DNA of 64,000 nucleotides from Candidatus Zixiibacteriota bacterium (GTDB taxonomy: Bacteria > Zixibacteria > MSB-5A5 > GN15 > FEB-12), in NCBI GenBank assembly GCA_020351995.1, contig CP070674.1, positions 2,180,667-2,244,666 of the forward strand. Direction: 5' to 3'. The position numbers and the translations under genes are program-made. This document shows positions 52,369 to 63,959 of the stretch, one piece after another. The notes under the pieces are model-generated. The model made no database searches, had not been told where the DNA came from, and saw only the letters and a program-made list of their open reading frames with translations. Positions within the stretch are counted from its first letter, which is position 1. Every line of letters begins with the position of its first letter.

Positions 52369-55300
52369 ATGAAGCTATATATTGTCTTTCTTCAATGCCT
52401 TGAGCGCATCAGGGCCCGGGCGAGCGAGCACATTCTGGGATTCTTCCTTATTATCCTGATGTTCGGGGCCGCCAATCCCACCTCACATGCCCAGGCAAAG
52501 AATATAGAGGTAATCTCGTCATCGGAAACCGGGTTTCATTTCCGAATTGCGCTTGACCCGGCCGGGCTGAATTGGTTCGCCGACGAAGATTCCCTGTGGA
52601 CCGGGTATACAACTGTACAGGTCGGCGTTCCCTATGGAACTCAACCGAGGGTCGTTCTTTCGCGGGGTAGTGAGCTGTCTGAACTTGGTGAGAACTATCT
52701 TCAGGGCAAGAGTCTGTCGGGGAGGGAGAAGACTCTGGTCGAGATCGGGGAGCCGGCGACGATTCGTGGAAGACAGATCGCTGGCATCAGAATTTACCCG
52801 GTAGTCGGGGGCGCGATGTATCGAGAGGTTGAGGTAAAGTTGACATTTGAGGGCACTGCCCCGACCGACATGGAGGCCGCGGCAGACCCTCATTTTGAAA
52901 AGATCTTCAGAGCAGTACTGGCCAATTATGATCAGTTTAGAGCCTGGCCTGTCTCACCGAGACCGGCCAGCAAGCCGACGGCTATTCAGGCCGGCCCTTT
53001 TGATCCATCGAACGAATGGTATAAACTATCCGTGAATCAGACCGGTCTGCATAAGCTTACGGGAGCTCAACTCGAGGCGGCCGGATTGTCGCTGAGCGAA
53101 GTATCATCGGACGAGATAAAGATGTTTAGTGGCGGGGGAATGCCTCTGGAATTTCCCAACGATCAGCCTCGTCCTGTCTTTACGGAAATCTCTATCTTGG
53201 TTCGAGACGGTCAGGATGGATGGTTTGACCGCGATGATTACGTGCTTTTCTTCGGTGAGGCTCAGGACAGATGGGTTTATAGCGCCGATGCCGCGCCGGA
53301 GTATATCGATAATCCGTATTGCGACCATAATGTTTACTGGCTGACAGTGTCAGGTGGCAGTGGCCTTAGAATGCAGTCGACGAACAGCATGACGCCGGGG
53401 ACGTTTGTCGACACATACCGAAATTATGAGCATGTCGAGCAGGATAATCTTCTAAGAAAGCTGAATGTCGGTCGGGTCAGTGACTATTACAACTGGTACT
53501 GGACAGATCAGCAGGCGCTTACATTCTGGGTACCGGTCAGCGGGTTAGTCCCCGATGATACGGCTAATGTCAGCATCTCGGCCAGGACCGGAGGCAGTTA
53601 CGTCGACCTGTGGGTGAATGGCGAACCGGCGATTAATAAGCTTTGCGGGTCCCGGAGCTGCACGTTTGGCACCACATCGCTTCTGGATGGATCTAACCAG
53701 GTCACTTTGGCTCTGTACCCCGCGTACGAGGCACCACCCTATTTAAATTATTTTGAGGTGAACTACAGCCGCGAAAATCTCCCGGTGAATGATAAGCTGG
53801 ATCTGACCCTGGGAACCTCCTCCGAAATTCTCACAGTAGAAGTTGCCAACGAGTTTTCATCCGATCCGCTGGTGCTCGACGTGAGCAATCCACTGCAGCC
53901 GCGGATTGTTGACCCAATGGTGGTCAACACGGATTATATCGAGTTTAGTTCGGAGGGAGACCTGTCAGTGTATCGGCGTTATTATCTGACCCCCGAGAAT
54001 TCTGCGGCTACCCCGATTTCGGTTCGCCTGGCATCGCCGGTTGACTTGTACGCGATCTCACAGCAGGTGGATCTGATAGTTGTCACGCCCCGGGTCTTCA
54101 TGTCATCGCTGGAGCCTTATCTGGATTACCGTCGGGCCGGTGGGTACACGGTCGCAGTTGCGGCGGTAGAGGATATCATGGACAACTTCGCTTTTGGCAT
54201 GTATGACCCGACGGCCATTCGCGACTTTCTGAAGTTCGCCTACGAGAACTATCCGTCGCCGGCACCCTCCGCGGTCCTCTTTGTGGGTGACGCTAATTAC
54301 GACTATCTGGACATTCTGGGCACCGGTACGCCTAATTATCTCCCCCCGCATATTTCATCTCTTGATTATTCGGCTTCCGACGATAACTATGTTTATTTCG
54401 GCTATTACGGGATTCTTGACAGTGACACTTCGTACCTGGATGGCGACCGCGGATTTGACATGATTTGCTCTCGCTGGCCGGTAAGGTCTCAGCAGGAAAT
54501 ACAGGTTATAACCGACAAGATTGCGCGATATGAGTCGGCCTCCCAGTTCGGCATATGGCGTAACAAGATTACGCTGGTGGCCGATGATGAGCGAGCCGGA
54601 AGCTCATCGTCTCTGGAGACTATTCACGTCCTCGACACAGAGGAGCTCGAGAACGAGCACATTCCGGCTTTATTTACGCGAGACAAGATTTATCTCTGGG
54701 AGTATCCGTTCGTGGGCCGTGAGAAACCGGAAGTAAACGACGCTATCGTTCGAGCCATCAATGACGGATCCCTGATGGTTAACTATGTTGGCCACGGTAA
54801 TCCCGATGTCTGGGCCCATGAGCATGTGCTGTGGCGCGGTGTGGACTTACCGCGTCTCAACAACAGGGAGCGGTTGCCACTGGTTTTTGTGGCATCGTGC
54901 GCGATCGGGTATTTTGACGACCCGTCGCGAGAGGGTATGGCTGAAGATTTCCTGACCCACTCGAATGGCGGAGCCGTCGGGATCATCGCGGCAACCCGCC
55001 TGGTTTACGCCAGCGCCAACGCTGATTTTAATCAGGAGACGTATGATAAGCTTCTTTATGCGGACTCGCTATCGATCTGCGAGGCGGTCTATGCGGCCAA
55101 GTTAGCGCGCCAGTACCTCGGCGGAGTTCCCTCGCCGATCACCAATGACCGCAAGTTCCTGTTCTTCGGCGAGCCCTTCGTGAGACTGGCCGTTCCGAGG
55201 CTGGATATCGAGGTTACCGCGACCCCAGACACCTTGCTGGCACTCGGCAAAACGGTGGTAGCTGGACGGGTGGTCGATGAAAATTTAGCCACTTACGCCC

Positions 55301-56253
55301 ATGACGGCGTCTTATATGTAGAAGTACTGGACTCGGAGAGAGATAAGGTGTATCGTGTCGTGAATTCTGATGGCAGCATTATGGCGGAAGTGGAATACGC
55401 CGTCACCGGACCTACCATACACCGTGGGTCTGCCACCATAGATAACGGTGAGTTTAGTTTCGACTTCCTCGCGCCCCTGGATATAGGATACGGCGGGGAT
55501 GGCGCCAGGATCTTGGTATACGCGCAGTTTGACAACATTGACGGCGCGGGGATTATCGATTCCATCGCGGTATCTGATTCGGTGGCCTCATCGGACGACG
55601 TTTTGGGTCCCACGGTCGAAATCTCCTTCCTTGGCCGACAGAACTTCATCAGCGGTGACCCTATCGCGAAAGACGCACGAATGCGGGTGGTTGTATCAGA
55701 TCCTTCCGGGGTAAACCTCACCGGCTCGATTGGGCACGGTATTACGATGGAAATAGACCGGCAATCTGAAAACACAGTGAATTTGACGCCTCTGTTCGAG
55801 TCATACCGGGATAACTATACTACCGGTGAACTGGAGTATCAGTTCGAAGGCCTAACAGCCGGGAATCATCATTTCAAGATAAAGGCCTGGGACAACGCTA
55901 ACAATTCGACCGCTTACGAGTTCGATGCTGAGGTACTTACCTCAGGGGGGCTGGCTATTCGGGAATTGCTGAATTATCCGAATCCCATGAAGGAATCGAC
56001 CCGGTTTTCTTTCTACCTTACTCAGCCCACGGAAAAATTTTCCCTCGAATTGTGTACGTTGTCCGGCAGAAAGATAAAAAGCTTCTTTCGTTATGCTCTT
56101 GAACCGGGTTATCATGACGATATAGAGTGGTATGGAACAGATGCCGATGGTAGCCGTGTGGCTACCGAAGTATATATCTATAAAGCAACGGCTTACCCTG
56201 CCGCCGGCGGGGAGAAAGTCGAATCCTTTGGAAAGTTGATATTAATCAATTAA
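52369..56253 (+). CDS. porU: PorU-like type IX secretion C25 peptidase/sortase
   Basis: This 1294-residue exported protein is a gingipain-fold (C25) peptidase with the long N-terminal beta region and C-terminal Ig-like domains of PorU. In Bacteroidetes PorU cuts the C-terminal sorting domain from type IX cargo at the cell surface and attaches A-LPS. The C25 domain spans about 565-940: it opens 'LIVVTPRVFMSSLEPYLDYR', has the catalytic His809 in NYVGHGNPDVWAHE and the nucleophile Cys844 in VASCAIGYFDD. The last 100 residues ('LNYPNPMKESTRFSFYLTQ' to the end) are a type IX/FlgD-like domain. The signal region is 'HILGFFLIILMFGAANPTSHA'. The PorV-family gene follows after 16 bases, which strongly supports the call. 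Confidence 0.9.
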   Translation: MKLYIVFLQCLERIRARASEHILGFFLIILMFGAANPTSHAQAKNIEVISSSETGFHFRIALDPAGLNWFADEDSLWTGYTTVQVGVPYGTQPRVVLSRGSELSELGENYLQGKSLSGREKTLVEIGEPATIRGRQIAGIRIYPVVGGAMYREVEVKLTFEGTAPTDMEAAADPHFEKIFRAVLANYDQFRAWPVSPRPASKPTAIQAGPFDPSNEWYKLSVNQTGLHKLTGAQLEAAGLSLSEVSSDEIKMFSGGGMPLEFPNDQPRPVFTEISILVRDGQDGWFDRDDYVLFFGEAQDRWVYSADAAPEYIDNPYCDHNVYWLTVSGGSGLRMQSTNSMTPGTFVDTYRNYEHVEQDNLLRKLNVGRVSDYYNWYWTDQQALTFWVPVSGLVPDDTANVSISARTGGSYVDLWVNGEPAINKLCGSRSCTFGTTSLLDGSNQVTLALYPAYEAPPYLNYFEVNYSRENLPVNDKLDLTLGTSSEILTVEVANEFSSDPLVLDVSNPLQPRIVDPMVVNTDYIEFSSEGDLSVYRRYYLTPENSAATPISVRLASPVDLYAISQQVDLIVVTPRVFMSSLEPYLDYRRAGGYTVAVAAVEDIMDNFAFGMYDPTAIRDFLKFAYENYPSPAPSAVLFVGDANYDYLDILGTGTPNYLPPHISSLDYSASDDNYVYFGYYGILDSDTSYLDGDRGFDMICSRWPVRSQQEIQVITDKIARYESASQFGIWRNKITLVADDERAGSSSSLETIHVLDTEELENEHIPALFTRDKIYLWEYPFVGREKPEVNDAIVRAINDGSLMVNYVGHGNPDVWAHEHVLWRGVDLPRLNNRERLPLVFVASCAIGYFDDPSREGMAEDFLTHSNGGAVGIIAATRLVYASANADFNQETYDKLLYADSLSICEAVYAAKLARQYLGGVPSPITNDRKFLFFGEPFVRLAVPRLDIEVTATPDTLLALGKTVVAGRVVDENLATYAHDGVLYVEVLDSERDKVYRVVNSDGSIMAEVEYAVTGPTIHRGSATIDNGEFSFDFLAPLDIGYGGDGARILVYAQFDNIDGAGIIDSIAVSDSVASSDDVLGPTVEISFLGRQNFISGDPIAKDARMRVVVSDPSGVNLTGSIGHGITMEIDRQSENTVNLTPLFESYRDNYTTGELEYQFEGLTAGNHHFKIKAWDNANNSTAYEFDAEVLTSGGLAIRELLNYPNPMKESTRFSFYLTQPTEKFSLELCTLSGRKIKSFFRYALEPGYHDDIEWYGTDADGSRVATEVYIYKATAYPAAGGEKVESFGKLILIN

Positions 56254-56269: not shown

Positions 56270-58894
56270 ATGAAACCGACGAAATCGCTTGTCCCAATCC
56301 TGGTGTTCCTTGTCGTGGTGGCTCTGGCCGGCCAGTCTCATGCCGACATCTCGAATTCCGCCGCCCTTTATCTGCGAATCGCCCCGGGCGCCCGAGCCGC
56401 AGGTATGGGAGAAGCCTATGTGGCCATTGCGGATGACGCTACCTCCACTCACTGGAACCCCGCTGGACTGGGGGCTTACCCGTTATCGCCAGGCTGGTTA
56501 CAGGCTTCGGTTCCGTCTGACCTGCAGCCACTCAGCGGCGCCGCGGCCTTGAAAACCCGGCGCGGCCACAATTACGCCGCATATGATATCTGGGCTATGA
56601 CCGCAAAAGGGCTGGCCAGATTCGACAATAAAGACTGGTATACTTACGAAGAGTTCGGTACCAAGACCGACCAGACTCTCGAGGAAATTGTTTCCTCATA
56701 TTTCAATCTCACCGATCCCGATCAGATTGCCGCTGTTGTCAAAGAAGTCGCGCGGTTCAACGCCGCACATTCGTACGGCTATCTTGACAGTCTGAGAACA
56801 AAGGTTATGAAGGCCGTGCCGGAAAGTTACAGCGGAATAGCCTCGCTCACCGGGGGATTCGATAGCTTGGTGGCCGGCTACGACCGTTGTCTGATCCTGT
56901 GGGAGCAGGTCGACGAAGTCGAGGCCGTCTTTGAAGAGGGCATGACCGACGGTGACCTTAGTGAAAAGGAAATTGATCGGATAAACTTCGCCGTTGAGAA
57001 ATCGCGGGCACGGTTTCTTCCCGAACAATTGTACATCGGTTATTCCGCGCTCATTGGCGACCAACTGCTGAGCGTTGCTTCCACTCGTGAGTTTCTCGTT
57101 GTGGCCGGGGAAGGTGGAATATACACCTTCAACGGCAAGCAGTGGCAAACCTATACCACCGCTAACGGTTTACCCTCGGGCAACATCACCGCGCTCGCCG
57201 GTAACGACCTTTACGTATTCGTAGCGACGGATAAGGGTATTGTCTTTCTCGATGGCTACGAGATGACACTTGTCGGTGCTGAGGGCGAGTTGCCGGAAGG
57301 AAATGTTTCTTCGGTCGTAGCAGGAGAAGGCGAAGAGGTTTGGGCGGTTGTGAACAACGTTCTTTACCGCTTTAACGGTGAGGCCTGGTTGGATCACTTC
57401 GAATATCAAGTTGTGATTGATGACACTCCGGAAAAGATCGCCGAAAAACTGGTTATTTACGGTACCGAGGCCGAAAAAGACGCTTTTTTAAAAGCCATGA
57501 TGAAACTAAACTCTCCTGGCGCACCTGATGCCGCGGCCGACTCGACGGCCGAAACCGAGCAACCGGGTCAGTTAGCTCTGGAACCGGGCAAGGTAATTAA
57601 GGCCCCGTTCACGGTGGGGTTCAAGGGTAATGTCGCCAAGATCTACATGACCGTCTCCGGTCGCCTCTGGGTTGGCACAAGTTATGGTATTATCTACCGT
57701 GACGGTGATGAGTGGGAACTTGCCGGCTACCGTGAATACACTGTTACCGCCGGAGACCGCCTCAGTGATATTGTTGCTCTACCGGGTACGAGTCCGGACC
57801 TGGATGTTGAAGGGTACAAAGCCGCTCTGATGGATATCAACGATCTGCAGGGTGAGCAACTCACACCCGGTCAGGTTATCAGGGTCTACAAGAATCCCAC
57901 CGCGGCACCGGTCTATGATATGACCGAGCGGCGTGGCCATACCTTCTTCTCAACCAGTCTCGGCATGCTGGAGCACGACGGTACGGCGTGGGGTAGAGTT
58001 GATGTGCACGGATTGGAGGATACCGAAATCCTGACCGTTCAGTCTCTGGATGATGAGTTGTGGTTTTCAGGAAAACGAAAAGTCGTCTACCGTGCCAACA
58101 GTAAGACCGATATCTCGATGATGTATGTCAAGTGGCTGCCCGAGTTGGCCGACGACCTGTACTATGCTTTTGCCTCCCTCGCGACTCACGTGGAAGGATG
58201 GGGCACGTTTGGCGGTAACTTTACCTATATCTCATACGGGACAATAACCCGCACGGGTTCCTCACCGGACGACATCCAGGGGACATTTGATTCCTATGAT
58301 TTCGCCCTTACCGGTTCCTGGGGAACGTCGGTAACAGACAAACTTAAGACCGGGGTATCGGCCAAGCTCTTGGTTTCACGACTTTCTCCTCAGGGGGCTG
58401 ATCAGGAGCTCGGCGAGGGCTCGGCGACCGGCTTCGCGGTTGACGTCGGTTTGATCTATCAGTGGACACCTCGCCTGAACTTGGGTATGGCGATAACAAA
58501 TCTTGGACCGGATCTGGCTTACATCGATGCCAGCCAGGCTGATCCGCTGCCGCGAAACCTCGCCCTCGGATTCGCCTACAAACTTCTTCAGACTGATTAC
58601 TATCATCTTCTGGTCACGGCTGAAGTGAATAAGTCACTGGTCGGTGTCGATGACGGGTTCAGCGAGGAATTGGAGCAGCTGGTTCTCAACGGCGGTGCCG
58701 AGTTCCTGTACAGTGATATACTCGCTCTCCGGGGTGGTTACGTTTACGATCAGGAAGGTGACGTGAAGATCGCAACCGTCGGTATCGGTCTGGGCCCGCT
58801 GGGAATATTCAAGTTCGATTTCGCTTATATACCGAGCCTTAACGACGTGGTGCTGGAGAATACCCTGCGTATCTCGCTGGCCATCCAGCCATGA
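56270..58894 (+). CDS. PorV-family outer-membrane protein with inserted propeller blades and LysM-like modules
   Basis: This 874-residue protein has a signal peptide (to about 25). Its N-terminal stretch is characteristic of PorV/PorQ barrels ('LRIAPGARAAGMGEAYVAIA', 'DDATSTHWNPAGLG', residues 33-67). The barrel resumes at about 622 ('WLPELADDLYYAFASLATHV', EGWGTFGGNFTYISYG) and ends 'LRISLAIQP'. Between them lie about 520 extra residues: two-component-regulator-type propeller blades ('NGKQWQTYTTANGLPSGNI', 'LYVFVATDKGIVFLDG', 'GRLWVGTSYGIIYRDGDEW') as in PorZ, a helical segment (about 105-260), a clear LysM-like module (about 490-540, YTVTAGDRLSDIV...LTPGQVIRVY) and a degenerate one (about 385-450). 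PorV shuttles cargo to PorU; PorZ binds A-LPS. This fusion may do both. Confidence 0.85.
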   Translation: MKPTKSLVPILVFLVVVALAGQSHADISNSAALYLRIAPGARAAGMGEAYVAIADDATSTHWNPAGLGAYPLSPGWLQASVPSDLQPLSGAAALKTRRGHNYAAYDIWAMTAKGLARFDNKDWYTYEEFGTKTDQTLEEIVSSYFNLTDPDQIAAVVKEVARFNAAHSYGYLDSLRTKVMKAVPESYSGIASLTGGFDSLVAGYDRCLILWEQVDEVEAVFEEGMTDGDLSEKEIDRINFAVEKSRARFLPEQLYIGYSALIGDQLLSVASTREFLVVAGEGGIYTFNGKQWQTYTTANGLPSGNITALAGNDLYVFVATDKGIVFLDGYEMTLVGAEGELPEGNVSSVVAGEGEEVWAVVNNVLYRFNGEAWLDHFEYQVVIDDTPEKIAEKLVIYGTEAEKDAFLKAMMKLNSPGAPDAAADSTAETEQPGQLALEPGKVIKAPFTVGFKGNVAKIYMTVSGRLWVGTSYGIIYRDGDEWELAGYREYTVTAGDRLSDIVALPGTSPDLDVEGYKAALMDINDLQGEQLTPGQVIRVYKNPTAAPVYDMTERRGHTFFSTSLGMLEHDGTAWGRVDVHGLEDTEILTVQSLDDELWFSGKRKVVYRANSKTDISMMYVKWLPELADDLYYAFASLATHVEGWGTFGGNFTYISYGTITRTGSSPDDIQGTFDSYDFALTGSWGTSVTDKLKTGVSAKLLVSRLSPQGADQELGEGSATGFAVDVGLIYQWTPRLNLGMAITNLGPDLAYIDASQADPLPRNLALGFAYKLLQTDYYHLLVTAEVNKSLVGVDDGFSEELEQLVLNGGAEFLYSDILALRGGYVYDQEGDVKIATVGIGLGPLGIFKFDFAYIPSLNDVVLENTLRISLAIQP

Positions 58895-58910
58895 GACAGG
58901 AGAGAGTCTA

Positions 58911-61900
58911 TTGGATAATAGGACTGTCCGTGGATTACGCAGCGTACTCATATTGATCTAGTTAACGGCGGCGGCCGCAACCGCCGCCGCCGACAAAAAG
59001 CTGATAATTAATGGTAAGCAACCGCTGGACTCCCCAGCCGGAGAAAATCCTGTCCGGCATCCCTGCCTGACGCCCTTTAGCTCTGACCGAATACTTTTAC
59101 CGCTCGAAAGAGAGCATCCCTGGAGTCTGCCGAAGGCGGCCCTGGCCGCCGATTTTAGCGATACCATCAACGTGCTCGTATTGCGCTACAACTTCCGATA
59201 CGAGGAAACTGACAACCCCAACACCACTGGCCGCGGGCATATGAATCTTTACGTGCCGGTCGACGCTGCCGATACGGCCCTGTACCTCGATACCGCCGGT
59301 CATTTCATCGACCCGCCCCCTCATGATTCGCTTTATTTCGACGCCCACATGCGAGCCTTGAAGATCTACTGGGAGATCGTCTCTGACGGCAAAATAACCC
59401 TGACATGGGACATATATCCCTCGACGCCGGATTCTCTATACGAATTACCTGAGGAAATGGGTTATTACGGCAAGTGTGACCCTGCGCAGGTCCTCGACGG
59501 CATCGTGGACCTTTTCATAGATGCCGTCAAACTGGCCGATACCGCTAGCCCGGAAATACTTTTTTCTGATTACGAATCGATATTTATCATGCACGCCGGT
59601 TCCGGTCGTCAAAGTGATATTGGTTTTCCGCCCACCTGTGGTGACATTTTTACCGGTTTTATCAGGTTTGGCGACTCGGTCGGTGTCGACCATGACTCCA
59701 ATTATGTCCGCAGCGCGCTGGTCGCACCCGAAACCGACAATCAGGACAATCGCCCCATGGCACTCAATGCTACTCTTGCCCACGAGTTCGGCCACCAGCT
59801 GGGTCTGGCTGATCTTTATAGCACCTACAGCTTCATGAGCATGCTGGGTGATTTCGCCCTGATGGACAATAACGGGTTCGGAACCGGCATCGACTTCGGG
59901 TTCAGCGCCGGTACCGTGCTCGGTGCCATACCGGTGTATCCGATGTGCTGGTCACGGGCATACTTGGGCTTTGTCGATGTTGTGGATTATCGCCAGGGCA
60001 GCGATATCCCTATCGTGGCGGCGGAGATGATATCGGAAAGAATAAAAGTCGCCCGGATACCGATTACGGAGAATGAATACTACCTTATTGAGAACCGGAT
60101 AATCGATCTTGATGGCGAGCCCGTTGCGGCGAAGGCCGACAGCGCCCGGTCGGTGATCCTGGGTCCCACTGATACTGCCGGAGCGTACTTTAATCGTGAA
60201 TACGATTTTCTCATGCCGGGCTCCGGTATGCTCATATTTCACGTCGATGAGCGGGTCGCGGCGCTGGATTACAATTACGATGGTTACGACAACTTTCACG
60301 ATAATCATCTCCAGTGGCCCTTCGATATATATGGAAATCCGGTTGACCGCTTTATCACCCTGGTAGAGGCCGATGGCATCGTGAACTTCGGTGGCGTTTA
60401 CCGCTCGGGTTACGGAAGTGAAGACGATATGTTCCGAGACGACCGGGGCGATGCTTTCACACCCAACACCAATCCTCCGGCCATAGACAACTCCGGAAAT
60501 AACACTCATATATACATCACGGATATTACTCGTGCCTCGGAAACTGTTGGTGACAACACTGTGATGCGCGATACACTCATGTTCTTCGACGTCGAGACCG
60601 ACCGGCTCGTCGAGGACTTCCCGGTTCGCGCCGGGTACCCGGCTCTCGGTATATCGCCGGTTGCGGACGATCTCGATGGTGACGGTAACCCCGAAATCAT
60701 CATAGCTTCGGATACATTGCTGTCGGTGGTTACACCGGATGGCCAGAACTTCCTGCGCCAGTTCACCGGTTGTGAGAGCTGTCCAATTTATTTAGATACA
60801 GCTTTTGCGACGGTCAACTATGGCCAGCCGGACACGGTGCCTGCGTTCGCGATTACACCGAATACAATTACTGCCGGTCCCGTAGCTGGCGAATTCGCGC
60901 CCGGGGCGGAGGGGAAACTGGTTGTCGTTGGATATTCTGCGGAAAATGGCAGCGGCGGAGTGCAATTGTATGAGTTGCGCGATGATGACGAAGATGGTCT
61001 CGCCGATTTGGCCCATGGCGTCGATACCAGTTACTTCCTGACTGACGGGAAACCTATCGCGGCCGCGTTTGGAGATTGGCTGGCAATCGTAACGGACAGC
61101 GGACGGATCTATGTGAAAAAATCGTATTCCGACTTGACGGAATTTCGGAGGATTGAAGAGCCATACGTCTACGGGATGTGTCAACCCGGTGATTCCATTC
61201 CTGTGATTCTGACAGGAGAGGGTCAATTCAGTTATCTTCGCTATAACACGGAGACGACAGCGGATCGATTGTACATTAGCGAGCTGTATACTTTGGGACC
61301 GGCCGCGATGGATTATGATGCCGACGGTGATTGGGAAATCGTTGTCTGTCGGCCGGACGGTGGGATTCTGCTCGTTGAACTTGATCTTACGGCTCCTGCA
61401 TACACCACGCTTGCTCAGAGAGATATGAAATTTGAATTCACGACCCGGCCGGTGGTGGGTGATGTGGACATGGACGGCCAACCTGACATCATCATCGGCG
61501 GAAGAAACGCTGTCTACGCCTTTAATCATGAGCTTACTCTGAAGACTTCGTTTCCCATAGAAGTAAACGATCGCTTCCCGAATGATCCGCTGACTGCCGC
61601 TCCGATTGTAGCCGATATCGAGGCCACCGGTCCACCCGAAATCGTCTTTCCCACCCTGACAGGCAACATCTATTCGTTTGGTCTTGAACCCTCTTACGGT
61701 TTTCCGCTGTCGGCCGGGGAGATGGCTTCAGGTTCGCCGGTATACCTGGTTGACACGGTCGGCGGTAAACTTGGTTATCTCGGGGCCGACGGGTGGTTCT
61801 ACCTGTGGCATGTCGATGAAGATGATGACGCCGTGTTCTGGCCTATGTTTGGCGGTGATGTGGGGGCGACATTCGCTTTCGATAGCGGGAAACTTCCCGC

Positions 61901-62204
61901 TCTGAAAGAATACGCTGCCCTCTTGCCGGAGCGGAGCTTTTATAATTACCCCAATCCCGTTGTTGACGGTGCTACCACGATCCGGTATTTTCTGGCTCAG
62001 GACGCGGTAAGTGTCACCCTGGACATTTATGACCTGTCCGGCAGGCAGGTGGGCAGTCTGTCGGGTCCGACCTCGGGCCGGGTCGACAACGAATTGGTGT
62101 GGGAATGCGAGGGAGTCACACCGGGAGTCTATCGGTGTGTAATTAATGCTGATTTCGGTGGAACAATTGAAACCGCATTCACTGATATCGCTATAATAAG
62201 ATAG
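58911..62204 (+). CDS. M6-like secreted metalloprotease with FG-GAP repeats and type IX-like tail; signal peptide interrupted by TAG
   Basis: The long open frame runs from 58962, and the first standard start inside it is GTG at 59172. That start would drop the N-terminal domain edge and all export signals. The same frame upstream gives TTG at 58911 after AGGAGAG, then a signal-like peptide (MDNRTVRGLRSVLILI, TAG at 58959-58961, then LTAAAATAAADKK). One TAG thus sits in the hydrophobic core. Counting that TAG codon, the protease zinc site is HEFGHQLGLADLY (His291, Glu292, His295), as in M6/immune-inhibitor peptidases. FG-GAP/VCBS-like repeats follow ('VADDLDGDGNPEIIIAS', 'YDADGDWEIVVCRPDG', 'GDVDMDGQPDIIIGG'), then a type IX-like tail ('FYNYPNPVVDGATTIRYFL'). 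It is likely PorU/PorV cargo if expressed. Confidence 0.8.
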
Positions 62205-62214
62205 GAGACTGTTC

Positions 62215-63144
62215 GTGCGGGGAAGTAGAATCTACGAAAATATACTCTGGCTATGTTGTCTGGCTATCCTGTTTGGCGGCAGTGCTGGTGCTTCTGCCGG
62301 CGAAGGGGCTTCCGTTTTTGACCAGGAGCAGATCCGCATCAGGTACAACATGGCCTCGGGACCATATCAGAAAAATCACACTTTCGCGCTGTCCGACGAA
62401 TTTGCCAGTGATGAGGCGCCGGCTTTCGATGCTAAGAGGGGCTACAAATCGCCGGCCAAAGCATTCGTGCTGTCGCTGGTAGTTCCGGGTCTGGGCCAGT
62501 ATTATTATGGCAGCCGGGTCAAACCGTTTGTATTTCTGGGGGCCGAGGTCGCTGCCTGGATTTTCCATGTCAAATATCATAACCAGGGAGACGATATCAC
62601 CGCCGAATTCGAGGCCTTCAATCGAGCCCACTGGTCGCGTGACGACTACGAACAGAAATATCTCCTGTGGGTTTACGGTGTGACAGATGATGAGGACCTT
62701 CCGGTAGGCACCAGGGGCATTACTCATTACCTTCCCAACGAACTTACCCAGCAGTATTACGAAATGACCGGCAAATACGACCAGTTCGCGTGGGGCTGGG
62801 ATGATGCCGAGATGGACGGCAGAGATTTGGACAGCTACAGCGCCAGCGATCCGCCTGATACTGTAATAGGCGATGCCACTGCCCCGTACTCCGCCAATCG
62901 CCTGCATTACGAGGAAATGCGCAACGACGCCAACAACGCCTATGATAAAGCAACCCGTATGATTTATGTTTCCATGGTTAATCGTCTGATCAGTGCTTTT
63001 GAGGCTTTATTTGCAACGAAGAAGCACAACCGGGAAGTCAAGCGCGAAAACGATGAATTCAGCCGGTTCAAGGTGAGCGCTAAGCTAAAGTCTTATTACG
63101 CTAAGCGAGATACACCTTTTATAACCGTGACCTACAAGTTTTGA
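62215..63144 (+). CDS. DUF5683-like exported protein (first of a tandem pair)
   Basis: This 309-residue protein has an N-terminal signal-like segment (MRGSRIYENILWLCCLAILF) and a GTG start after AGGAGA. Its recognisable part is 'SPAKAFVLSLVVPGLGQYYY' with GSRVKPFVFLGAEVAAWIF, the membrane-hairpin pattern of DUF5683-like and TM2-like proteins; a long polar region with many acidic and aromatic residues follows, and the end has a beta strand (PFITVTYKF). The function is unknown. It lies 10 bases after the M6-like gene and overlaps the paralog start region, so it belongs to the same transcript as the type IX-like genes. Confidence 0.72.
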   Translation: MRGSRIYENILWLCCLAILFGGSAGASAGEGASVFDQEQIRIRYNMASGPYQKNHTFALSDEFASDEAPAFDAKRGYKSPAKAFVLSLVVPGLGQYYYGSRVKPFVFLGAEVAAWIFHVKYHNQGDDITAEFEAFNRAHWSRDDYEQKYLLWVYGVTDDEDLPVGTRGITHYLPNELTQQYYEMTGKYDQFAWGWDDAEMDGRDLDSYSASDPPDTVIGDATAPYSANRLHYEEMRNDANNAYDKATRMIYVSMVNRLISAFEALFATKKHNREVKRENDEFSRFKVSAKLKSYYAKRDTPFITVTYKF

Positions 63145-63152
63145 GTCGACCT

Positions 63153-63959
63153 ATGAAGACAGTCAAAATCGCGGCACAGGTGCTCTTGACGATATTTGTG
63201 GCTTCTGGAGTTGCCTTCGGAGCGATCAAGATGCAGCCCACGCCCATTCAGGACCAGATGAATCTCGCTATCGCCGGCGCCAATTATGCCGCCCAGGATG
63301 ACTTCGATGAATTCGACGACCCGTCTGAAAAAAAGCCGGATTCGAATACGAAGCGCACGAAACGAGTATCGATCGCAAAGGCGGCGCTACTATCGGCTCT
63401 CCTTCCGGGTCTTGGTGAGTACCATATAGGTAACCGGACAAAAGCCAGGTATTTCTTCGGTGCCGAGGCGTTGACCTGGGCAAGCTTTGTAGCCTTTCGC
63501 ATGTACGGCTCCTGGAAGAAGGACGATCTCATTCGTTTCGCGGCTCAGTACGCCAACGCCGATCTCGAAGGCAAGAGTGACGATTTTCTGGATTGGGTGG
63601 GTTTCTATAGCGACATATATGAATTCAATACCCGGGGTCGAGTGGGCGATCCGGACCGACCCTACCTGCAGGACACCCCCGAGAATCACTGGGTGTGGAT
63701 TAGCCCCGAATATCAGGCAGCCTACCGCGACCTTAAAAACAGCAGCCGGGAGGCTTATCGAAAAGCGGATTTTATGATTGGGGTCGCTATTGTGAACCGG
63801 GTCATCTCGGTCATCGACGCTATCAGAGATGCCAAGCGGGCTAACCGTCAACTTGATGATAACACCTTCGGTGACCTTGACAAACTGCACTACAAGTTCC
63901 GCATTGACCCATTGAGCCTCAACCGCCAGATCAGTCTCACCATTTACACCCCCTTCTGA
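63153..63959 (+). CDS. DUF5683-like exported protein (second of a tandem pair)
   Basis: This 268-residue protein is a divergent paralog of the preceding one. It shares the same order: signal peptide (MKTVKIAAQVLLTIFVASGV), an acidic linker, 'SIAKAALLSALLPGLGEYHI', GNRTKARYFFGAEALTWASF, then a polar helical region ending 'AIVNRVISVIDAIRDAKRAN' and a final beta strand (ISLTIYTPF). The counterpart 'SMVNRLISAFEALFATKKHN' in its neighbour shows common descent. A TTG at 63141 overlapping the upstream stop is an alternative start. The function is unknown; position suggests an envelope role in the type IX-like island. Confidence 0.72.
   Translation: MKTVKIAAQVLLTIFVASGVAFGAIKMQPTPIQDQMNLAIAGANYAAQDDFDEFDDPSEKKPDSNTKRTKRVSIAKAALLSALLPGLGEYHIGNRTKARYFFGAEALTWASFVAFRMYGSWKKDDLIRFAAQYANADLEGKSDDFLDWVGFYSDIYEFNTRGRVGDPDRPYLQDTPENHWVWISPEYQAAYRDLKNSSREAYRKADFMIGVAIVNRVISVIDAIRDAKRANRQLDDNTFGDLDKLHYKFRIDPLSLNRQISLTIYTPF

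Follow-up and report, generated by a model that had tools for sequence, protein, structure and literature searches.

In Bacteroidota, PorV has been proposed to leave the SprA translocon together with its cargo and to act as a freely moving shuttle. In the Flavobacterium translocon, SkpA touches PorV on its periplasmic face (PMC10994853). PorE of Porphyromonas gingivalis, which comprises TPR, propeller, CRD, and peptidoglycan-binding OmpA-like domains, complexes with the FadL-family barrel PorP and has been proposed to anchor the type IX secretion system (T9SS) to the cell wall (PMC9143113, PMC7192894); an alternative proposal is that PorE serves as a more general envelope tether (PMC12204202). 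PorZ, which carries propellers of the regulator class, is a surface-acting protein that supplies PorU with anionic LPS.

Searches of the open-access literature, to which this survey was confined, recovered no description of a PorV with a regulator-type propeller or of a T9SS in Zixibacteria; for PorV together with LysM, they returned only papers that concern other topics by title and abstract. The arrangement described here, a PorV-family barrel combined with a periplasmic propeller and LysM-like modules, appears undescribed.

The PorU locus and its T9SS context

The window, a stretch of 64,000 nucleotides, is part of a 3.6 Mb single-contig genome (G000). Around the gene of interest (56270-58894, + strand), it contains the following features:

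52369..56253, + strand: PorU sortase (peptidase C25); NF033707 2.1e-202, 674.7 bits (cut-off 420); PF01364 4.1e-80
59172..62204, + strand: M6-like metalloprotease with a type IX sorting domain, third gene in the conserved block; NF052323 4.2e-74, TIGR04183
62215..63144, + strand: DUF5683-like protein, fourth gene in the conserved block; PF18935 26.2 bits, just below the cut-off of 26.7
63141..63959, + strand: second DUF5683-like protein, fifth gene in the conserved block; PF18935 24.4 bits, just below the cut-off

The adjoining PorU at 52369, named in the original prediction, is borne out by its profile score, and the gene ends 16 nt upstream of the ORF encoding the 874-residue protein. The block of PorU, PorV with insert, M6 protease, and two DUF5683-like proteins is kept in nearly all Zixibacteriota loci read, as well as in a second phylum, and the inserted PorV adjoins PorU in 22 of 22 longer neighborhoods. 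Separately, comparison with L037 places an in-frame TAG within an apparent signal peptide upstream of the M6-like protease start (window 58895-59171); the window's protease may therefore lack a secretion signal, though a sequencing error is possible and relatives have intact copies. NF052323 is named for an inactivated M6 protease, yet the HEFGH zinc motif is intact in the window copy and in all relatives checked.

SprA occurs in 129 of the 132 Zixibacteriota genomes, indicating that a translocon exists, and it scores over its cut-off in the window's own genome, which thus encodes both the SprA translocon and the PorU sortase. Profiles for GldM and GldN gave no match in 12 Zixibacteriota genomes and likewise none in control genomes; the GldL profile gave one sub-cut-off match in the same 12 and none in the controls. 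Five plain PorV-family proteins (317-346 residues) are encoded elsewhere in the window's genome. Among PorV-family paralogues, L071 and L074 (G000:C1:325900 and 3478006) have long C-terminal tails, TPR-like by eye, that would lie in the periplasm, and neighboring PorV-family matches at G000:C1:827951-829756 (L070, L072, L078), two of them in one 638-residue open frame, hint at a double or tandem barrel.

Matches to the PorZ profile were found elsewhere in all 12 genomes tested, at full length in several. The window's own genome encodes a separate PorZ-like protein of 736 residues with a C-terminal sorting domain, scoring 146.2 bits, short of the cut-off of 260 but well in excess of the 9.1 bits of the 874-residue protein. 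In two distant Zixibacteriota (L091 11-3693, L087 167-3717), a PorZ-like gene lies directly behind an apolipoprotein N-acyltransferase-like gene, as judged by eye, a possible conserved pair.

Anatomy of the 874-residue protein

The 874-residue product of the ORF is a PorV-family protein with a propeller-LysM insert. It matches the PorV/PorQ family profile NF033709 (4.2e-69, 233.6 bits; cut-off 90) and falls below the cut-off of the PorV equivalog NF033710 (176.2 bits vs. 250), and is best called a PorV-family protein rather than a certified PorV. A sequence search of the PDB recovered Flavobacterium johnsoniae PorV (6h3i_F, 7.4e-28) in three stretches: query residues 9-66 align with PorV 8-64, and residues 613-796 and 786-871 align with PorV from residue 72 onward. 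In this alignment, some 540 residues replace the 7 that join the hatch to strand 1 in the F. johnsoniae protein, which has no insert but otherwise shares the hatch, the 14-stranded FadL-type barrel, and a genome encoding PorU and SprA.

An AlphaFold2 model built on 43 aligned homologues (mean pLDDT 85.9, pTM 0.80) predicts both the hatch and the 14-stranded barrel (strands at 614-872). With the whole model as a Foldseek query, PorV ranks first (8gl6_F 6.9e-18, 6h3i_F 8.4e-14), followed by two-component sensor propellers and FadL-family channels. These results uphold the earlier assignment of both flanks to the PorV family; the separation of the flanks also holds, at about 540 residues with the first strand from 614 (originally put at about 520 and 622). 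The resulting domain anatomy, listed below in order of position, is well supported.

56270..56344, + strand: signal peptide, residues 1-25, by eye (hydrophobic N-terminus ending SHA; low-confidence model helix 4-19)
56351..56476, + strand: N-terminal hatch of FadL/PorV fold, residues 28-69, ending in an NPAGL motif; profile and PDB match
56477..58105, + strand: insert with seven-bladed propeller and three LysM-like modules, residues 70-612; models, profile
56492..56509, + strand: strand 75-80, which probably completes blade G as its outer strand; judged by strand order
56537..56641, + strand: propeller blade A, residues 90-124; model
56645..57040, + strand: LysM-like module 1, expanded by a helical block, residues 126-257; hhalign 97% to module 2, 93% to module 3
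56774..57001, + strand: helical block inside LysM-like module 1, residues 169-244; model
57065..57154, + strand: propeller blade B, residues 266-295; model
57185..57271, + strand: propeller blade C, residues 306-334; model
57305..57373, + strand: propeller blade D, residues 346-368; model
57395..57607, + strand: LysM-like module 2, residues 376-446; family profile retrieves LysM chains; PF01476 in 15/42
57632..57721, + strand: propeller blade E, residues 455-484; model; hhalign 98% to blade B
57728..57889, + strand: LysM-like module 3, residues 487-540; PF01476 and profile match to LysM 4uz2 at 7.4e-9
57911..57997, + strand: propeller blade F, residues 548-576; model
58028..58096, + strand: propeller blade G, residues 587-609; model
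58109..58885, + strand: 14-stranded FadL-type barrel S1-S14, residues 614-872; profile, PDB match, AlphaFold2, Foldseek

The hatch has a median pairwise identity of 79% among homologues. A CdiI_2 match at residues 134-170, present in only 1 of 43 homologues, was taken as chance.

Modeled alone (pLDDT 90.9, pTM 0.86), the insert forms one complete seven-bladed regulator-type propeller, with blade count and closure read from the strand order of the model. PF07494, the regulator-type propeller profile, matches 30 of 43 homologues; the window's own sequence scores 13.5 bits, below the cut-off of 20.4. The regulator-type blades first recognized by eye thus stand. A fold search with the insert model returned the periplasmic sensor domains of BT3049, BT4673, and BT4663 as best matches (1.1e-8 or weaker), and PorZ came 22nd; likewise, the insert profile matched sensor-kinase propellers in the PDB at 8.6e-34 and PorZ at 0.0096. 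These hybrid two-component sensor domains are the best solved relatives of the insert and share its propeller class, but there a kinase carries two propellers together with a Y_Y_Y domain, whereas the insert is a single propeller on a barrel, broken by LysM-like modules.

Three LysM-like modules of b-a-a-b order lie between blades A and B (126-257), D and E (376-446), and E and F (487-540). PF01476 (LysM) was found in 19 of 43 homologues. Module by module, 15 of 42 module-2 sequences matched (best 1e-10), as did 12 of 42 module-3 sequences, and in the window's own sequence only module 3 exceeds the cut-off (22.9 bits vs. 20.9). Most PDB chains retrieved by the family profiles of modules 2 and 3 were LysM (best 1.9e-9 and 7.4e-9), among them the cell-wall hydrolase domains 4uz2 and 8i2e (LytE). 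The link of module 1 to LysM runs solely through profile-profile comparison with modules 2 and 3 (hhalign 97% for 1-2, 93% for 1-3, and 98% for 2-3; control pairs at or below 3%). Compared with 4uz2 and 8i2e, the modules have a longer second helix region and are placed between propeller blades, and module 1 holds a helical block of 75 residues. This block, predicted at residues 169-244, is absent in the second phylum, where module 1 is plain. Modules have also been lost (module 3 in L056; module 1 in L051 and L052) and gained, with a second copy of module 1, including the helical block, in L043 and L050 (hhalign 99%). LysM-like sequence was therefore rightly recognized at the outset and, like the propeller, is recovered by profile search, but the count of one clear and one degenerate module gives way to three mutually homologous ones.

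Membrane side and spread of the insert

In the AlphaFold2 model, the insert lies between the hatch and strand 1, and all 14 barrel strands follow it. Residues 193-199 of F. johnsoniae PorV form a periplasmic loop placed by experiment (PMC10994853), and in the 6h3i_F alignment they correspond to query 731/732, which the model assigns to the S6/S7 turn. The even-to-odd turns are therefore periplasmic throughout, as is the point where strand 1 begins. The modeled turns agree with this polarity: even-to-odd turns span 3-5 residues and odd-to-even loops span 4-17, the pattern expected if the former face the periplasm and the latter the exterior. Additionally, N-terminal tails of the FadL family pass through the pore to the outside (PMC12611786), so that the hatch would end at the periplasmic rim. 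The linkers flanking the insert are only about 5 residues on each side in the model, which would seat the propeller at that rim, directly under the barrel; this pose rests on linker length and topology. Placement of the insert on the periplasmic side is well supported by these model-based arguments, contrary to the earlier proposal that it leaves from an extracellular loop.

The same fusion, which the original prediction had suggested seeking in related genomes, is widespread. With a profile built from the insert alone, 128 of 132 Zixibacteriota genomes give a match; the full protein matches all 132, paralogues contributing to the latter count. The closest named relative (CP070756.1, Candidatus Zixiibacteriota) is 60% identical over the full protein. 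One of 109 genomes from other phyla (G134, 5e-76) also has the insert, and within the phylum of that genome it is present in 16 of 17. Open full-length homologues span two phyla at 30-61% identity.

PorU was detected in 32 of the 109 other-phylum genomes, over the cut-off in 19. Seven of them have a PorU-PorV-M6 operon with a plain PorV of 330-409 residues and 5-7 residues between hatch and barrel; a plain PorV at the same operon position indicates that the insert was added at one defined site. In trees of the hatch and barrel, the proteins with the insert form a group to which the plain operon PorVs are closest. A single gain is favored by these trees but weakly supported (80/71 after removal of long branches).

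Possible roles of the insert

We lean, with moderate confidence, toward the insert giving the PorU-linked PorV of the T9SS an integral periplasmic domain for peptidoglycan anchoring and docking that works like PorE. The PorU-linked PorV would have gained a 540-residue domain directly beneath its barrel; we infer that the LysM-like modules may bind peptidoglycan glycan strands, and the propeller may be a scaffold that also docks other periplasmic T9SS parts. PorV would then be pinned from beneath to the cell wall, and its extracellular loops would deal with substrate and PorU on the upper side. The argument is one of analogy: a FadL-family barrel with a propeller and wall-binding-type modules on PorE's side of the membrane suggests a built-in tether and dock. 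In both PorE/PorP and the protein described here, such a barrel works with a propeller in the periplasm and with a domain that binds peptidoglycan, the latter a candidate in the case of the 874-residue protein. However, PorE is a separate lipoprotein with TPR, a five-bladed propeller, CRD, and OmpA-like domain, whereas here a single chain carries seven blades and LysM-like modules; a Pfam-type profile search found neither TPR nor OmpA matches in it. The function would thus be PorE-like, achieved in one chain with unrelated modules. So pinned, PorV would be stationary rather than a freely moving shuttle, and plain PorV-family proteins elsewhere in the genome could be the carriers.

Several points weigh against anchoring: the modules are poorly conserved, module 3 alone clears the Pfam cut-off in the window's own sequence, single modules are lost in some lineages, and PorE itself may be a general tether (PMC12204202). 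The LysM-like modules are the least conserved segments of the protein (22-26% median pairwise identity vs. 51% for the barrel), and protein docking for this reason stays the main rival. In this reading the LysM-like modules of the periplasmic insert would no longer bind glycan and, with the propeller, would form a protein docking platform coupling PorV to SprA or to the energizing machinery, like the SprE/SkpA contacts in F. johnsoniae. We regard this as possible, if rather unlikely. Individually dispensable modules are in keeping with it, as is the SkpA contact with the periplasmic face of PorV (PMC10994853); further parts may also exist, given that GldL, GldM, and GldN profiles gave no convincing match in 12 genomes, although the controls were also silent and the GldM search thus had no positive control. 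Nonetheless, cell-wall LysM proteins still dominate the matches to the module 2 and module 3 profiles, and a glycan-binding fold present in three to four copies suggests avid binding to a polymer.

It is improbable that the propeller instead handles another glycan, for example by gathering lipid-linked sugar for PorU to attach to cargo, or that it senses the state of the envelope. Its closest solved relatives are periplasmic domains of polysaccharide-sensing hybrid two-component systems, and PorZ, which brings anionic LPS to PorU, has a propeller of the same class. However, no signaling domain follows the propeller in the 874-residue protein, PorZ acts at the surface and has a separate PorZ-like counterpart in this genome, and the LysM modules would be left unexplained.

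The original prediction, an extracellular PorV loop holding PorZ-like blades as a minimal fused surface attachment complex, now seems very improbable. Its ingredients (PorV, the PorU neighbor, and regulator-type blades) are all real, and PorZ and the insert do share a propeller class and a T9SS context. PorZ, however, is a surface protein with two seven-bladed propellers and a sorting domain, whereas the 874-residue protein has one propeller, lacks a sorting domain, and scores 9.1 bits against the PorZ profile NF052228 (cut-off 260). Capture of a PorZ is ruled out by the separate PorZ-like gene together with the far closer match to sensor-kinase propellers, and a surface complex is contradicted by the position of the insert ahead of strand 1 and all 14 strands, and by the homologous periplasmic turn placed by experiment (PMC10994853). 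Finally, misassembly or chance fusion of unrelated genes has a negligible probability and is ruled out by the conserved gene order and the full-length open homologues across Zixibacteriota and the second phylum.

Extending the preferred reading of a wall-anchoring and docking insert, we tentatively suggest, as a possibility short of even likelihood, that the PorU-linked PorV of these phyla is a fixed, wall-anchored station to which plain PorV paralogues shuttle cargo from SprA, giving peptidoglycan-pinned attachment sites without a PorE-type tether. The periplasmic placement of the insert corrects the tempting reading of a surface-exposed fusion, and a candidate wall-binding module fused to PorV in uncultured phyla bears on how the T9SS is anchored in the envelope and on the mobility of PorV. 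Were the station reading true, the T9SS in these phyla would be organized around peptidoglycan-pinned attachment sites.
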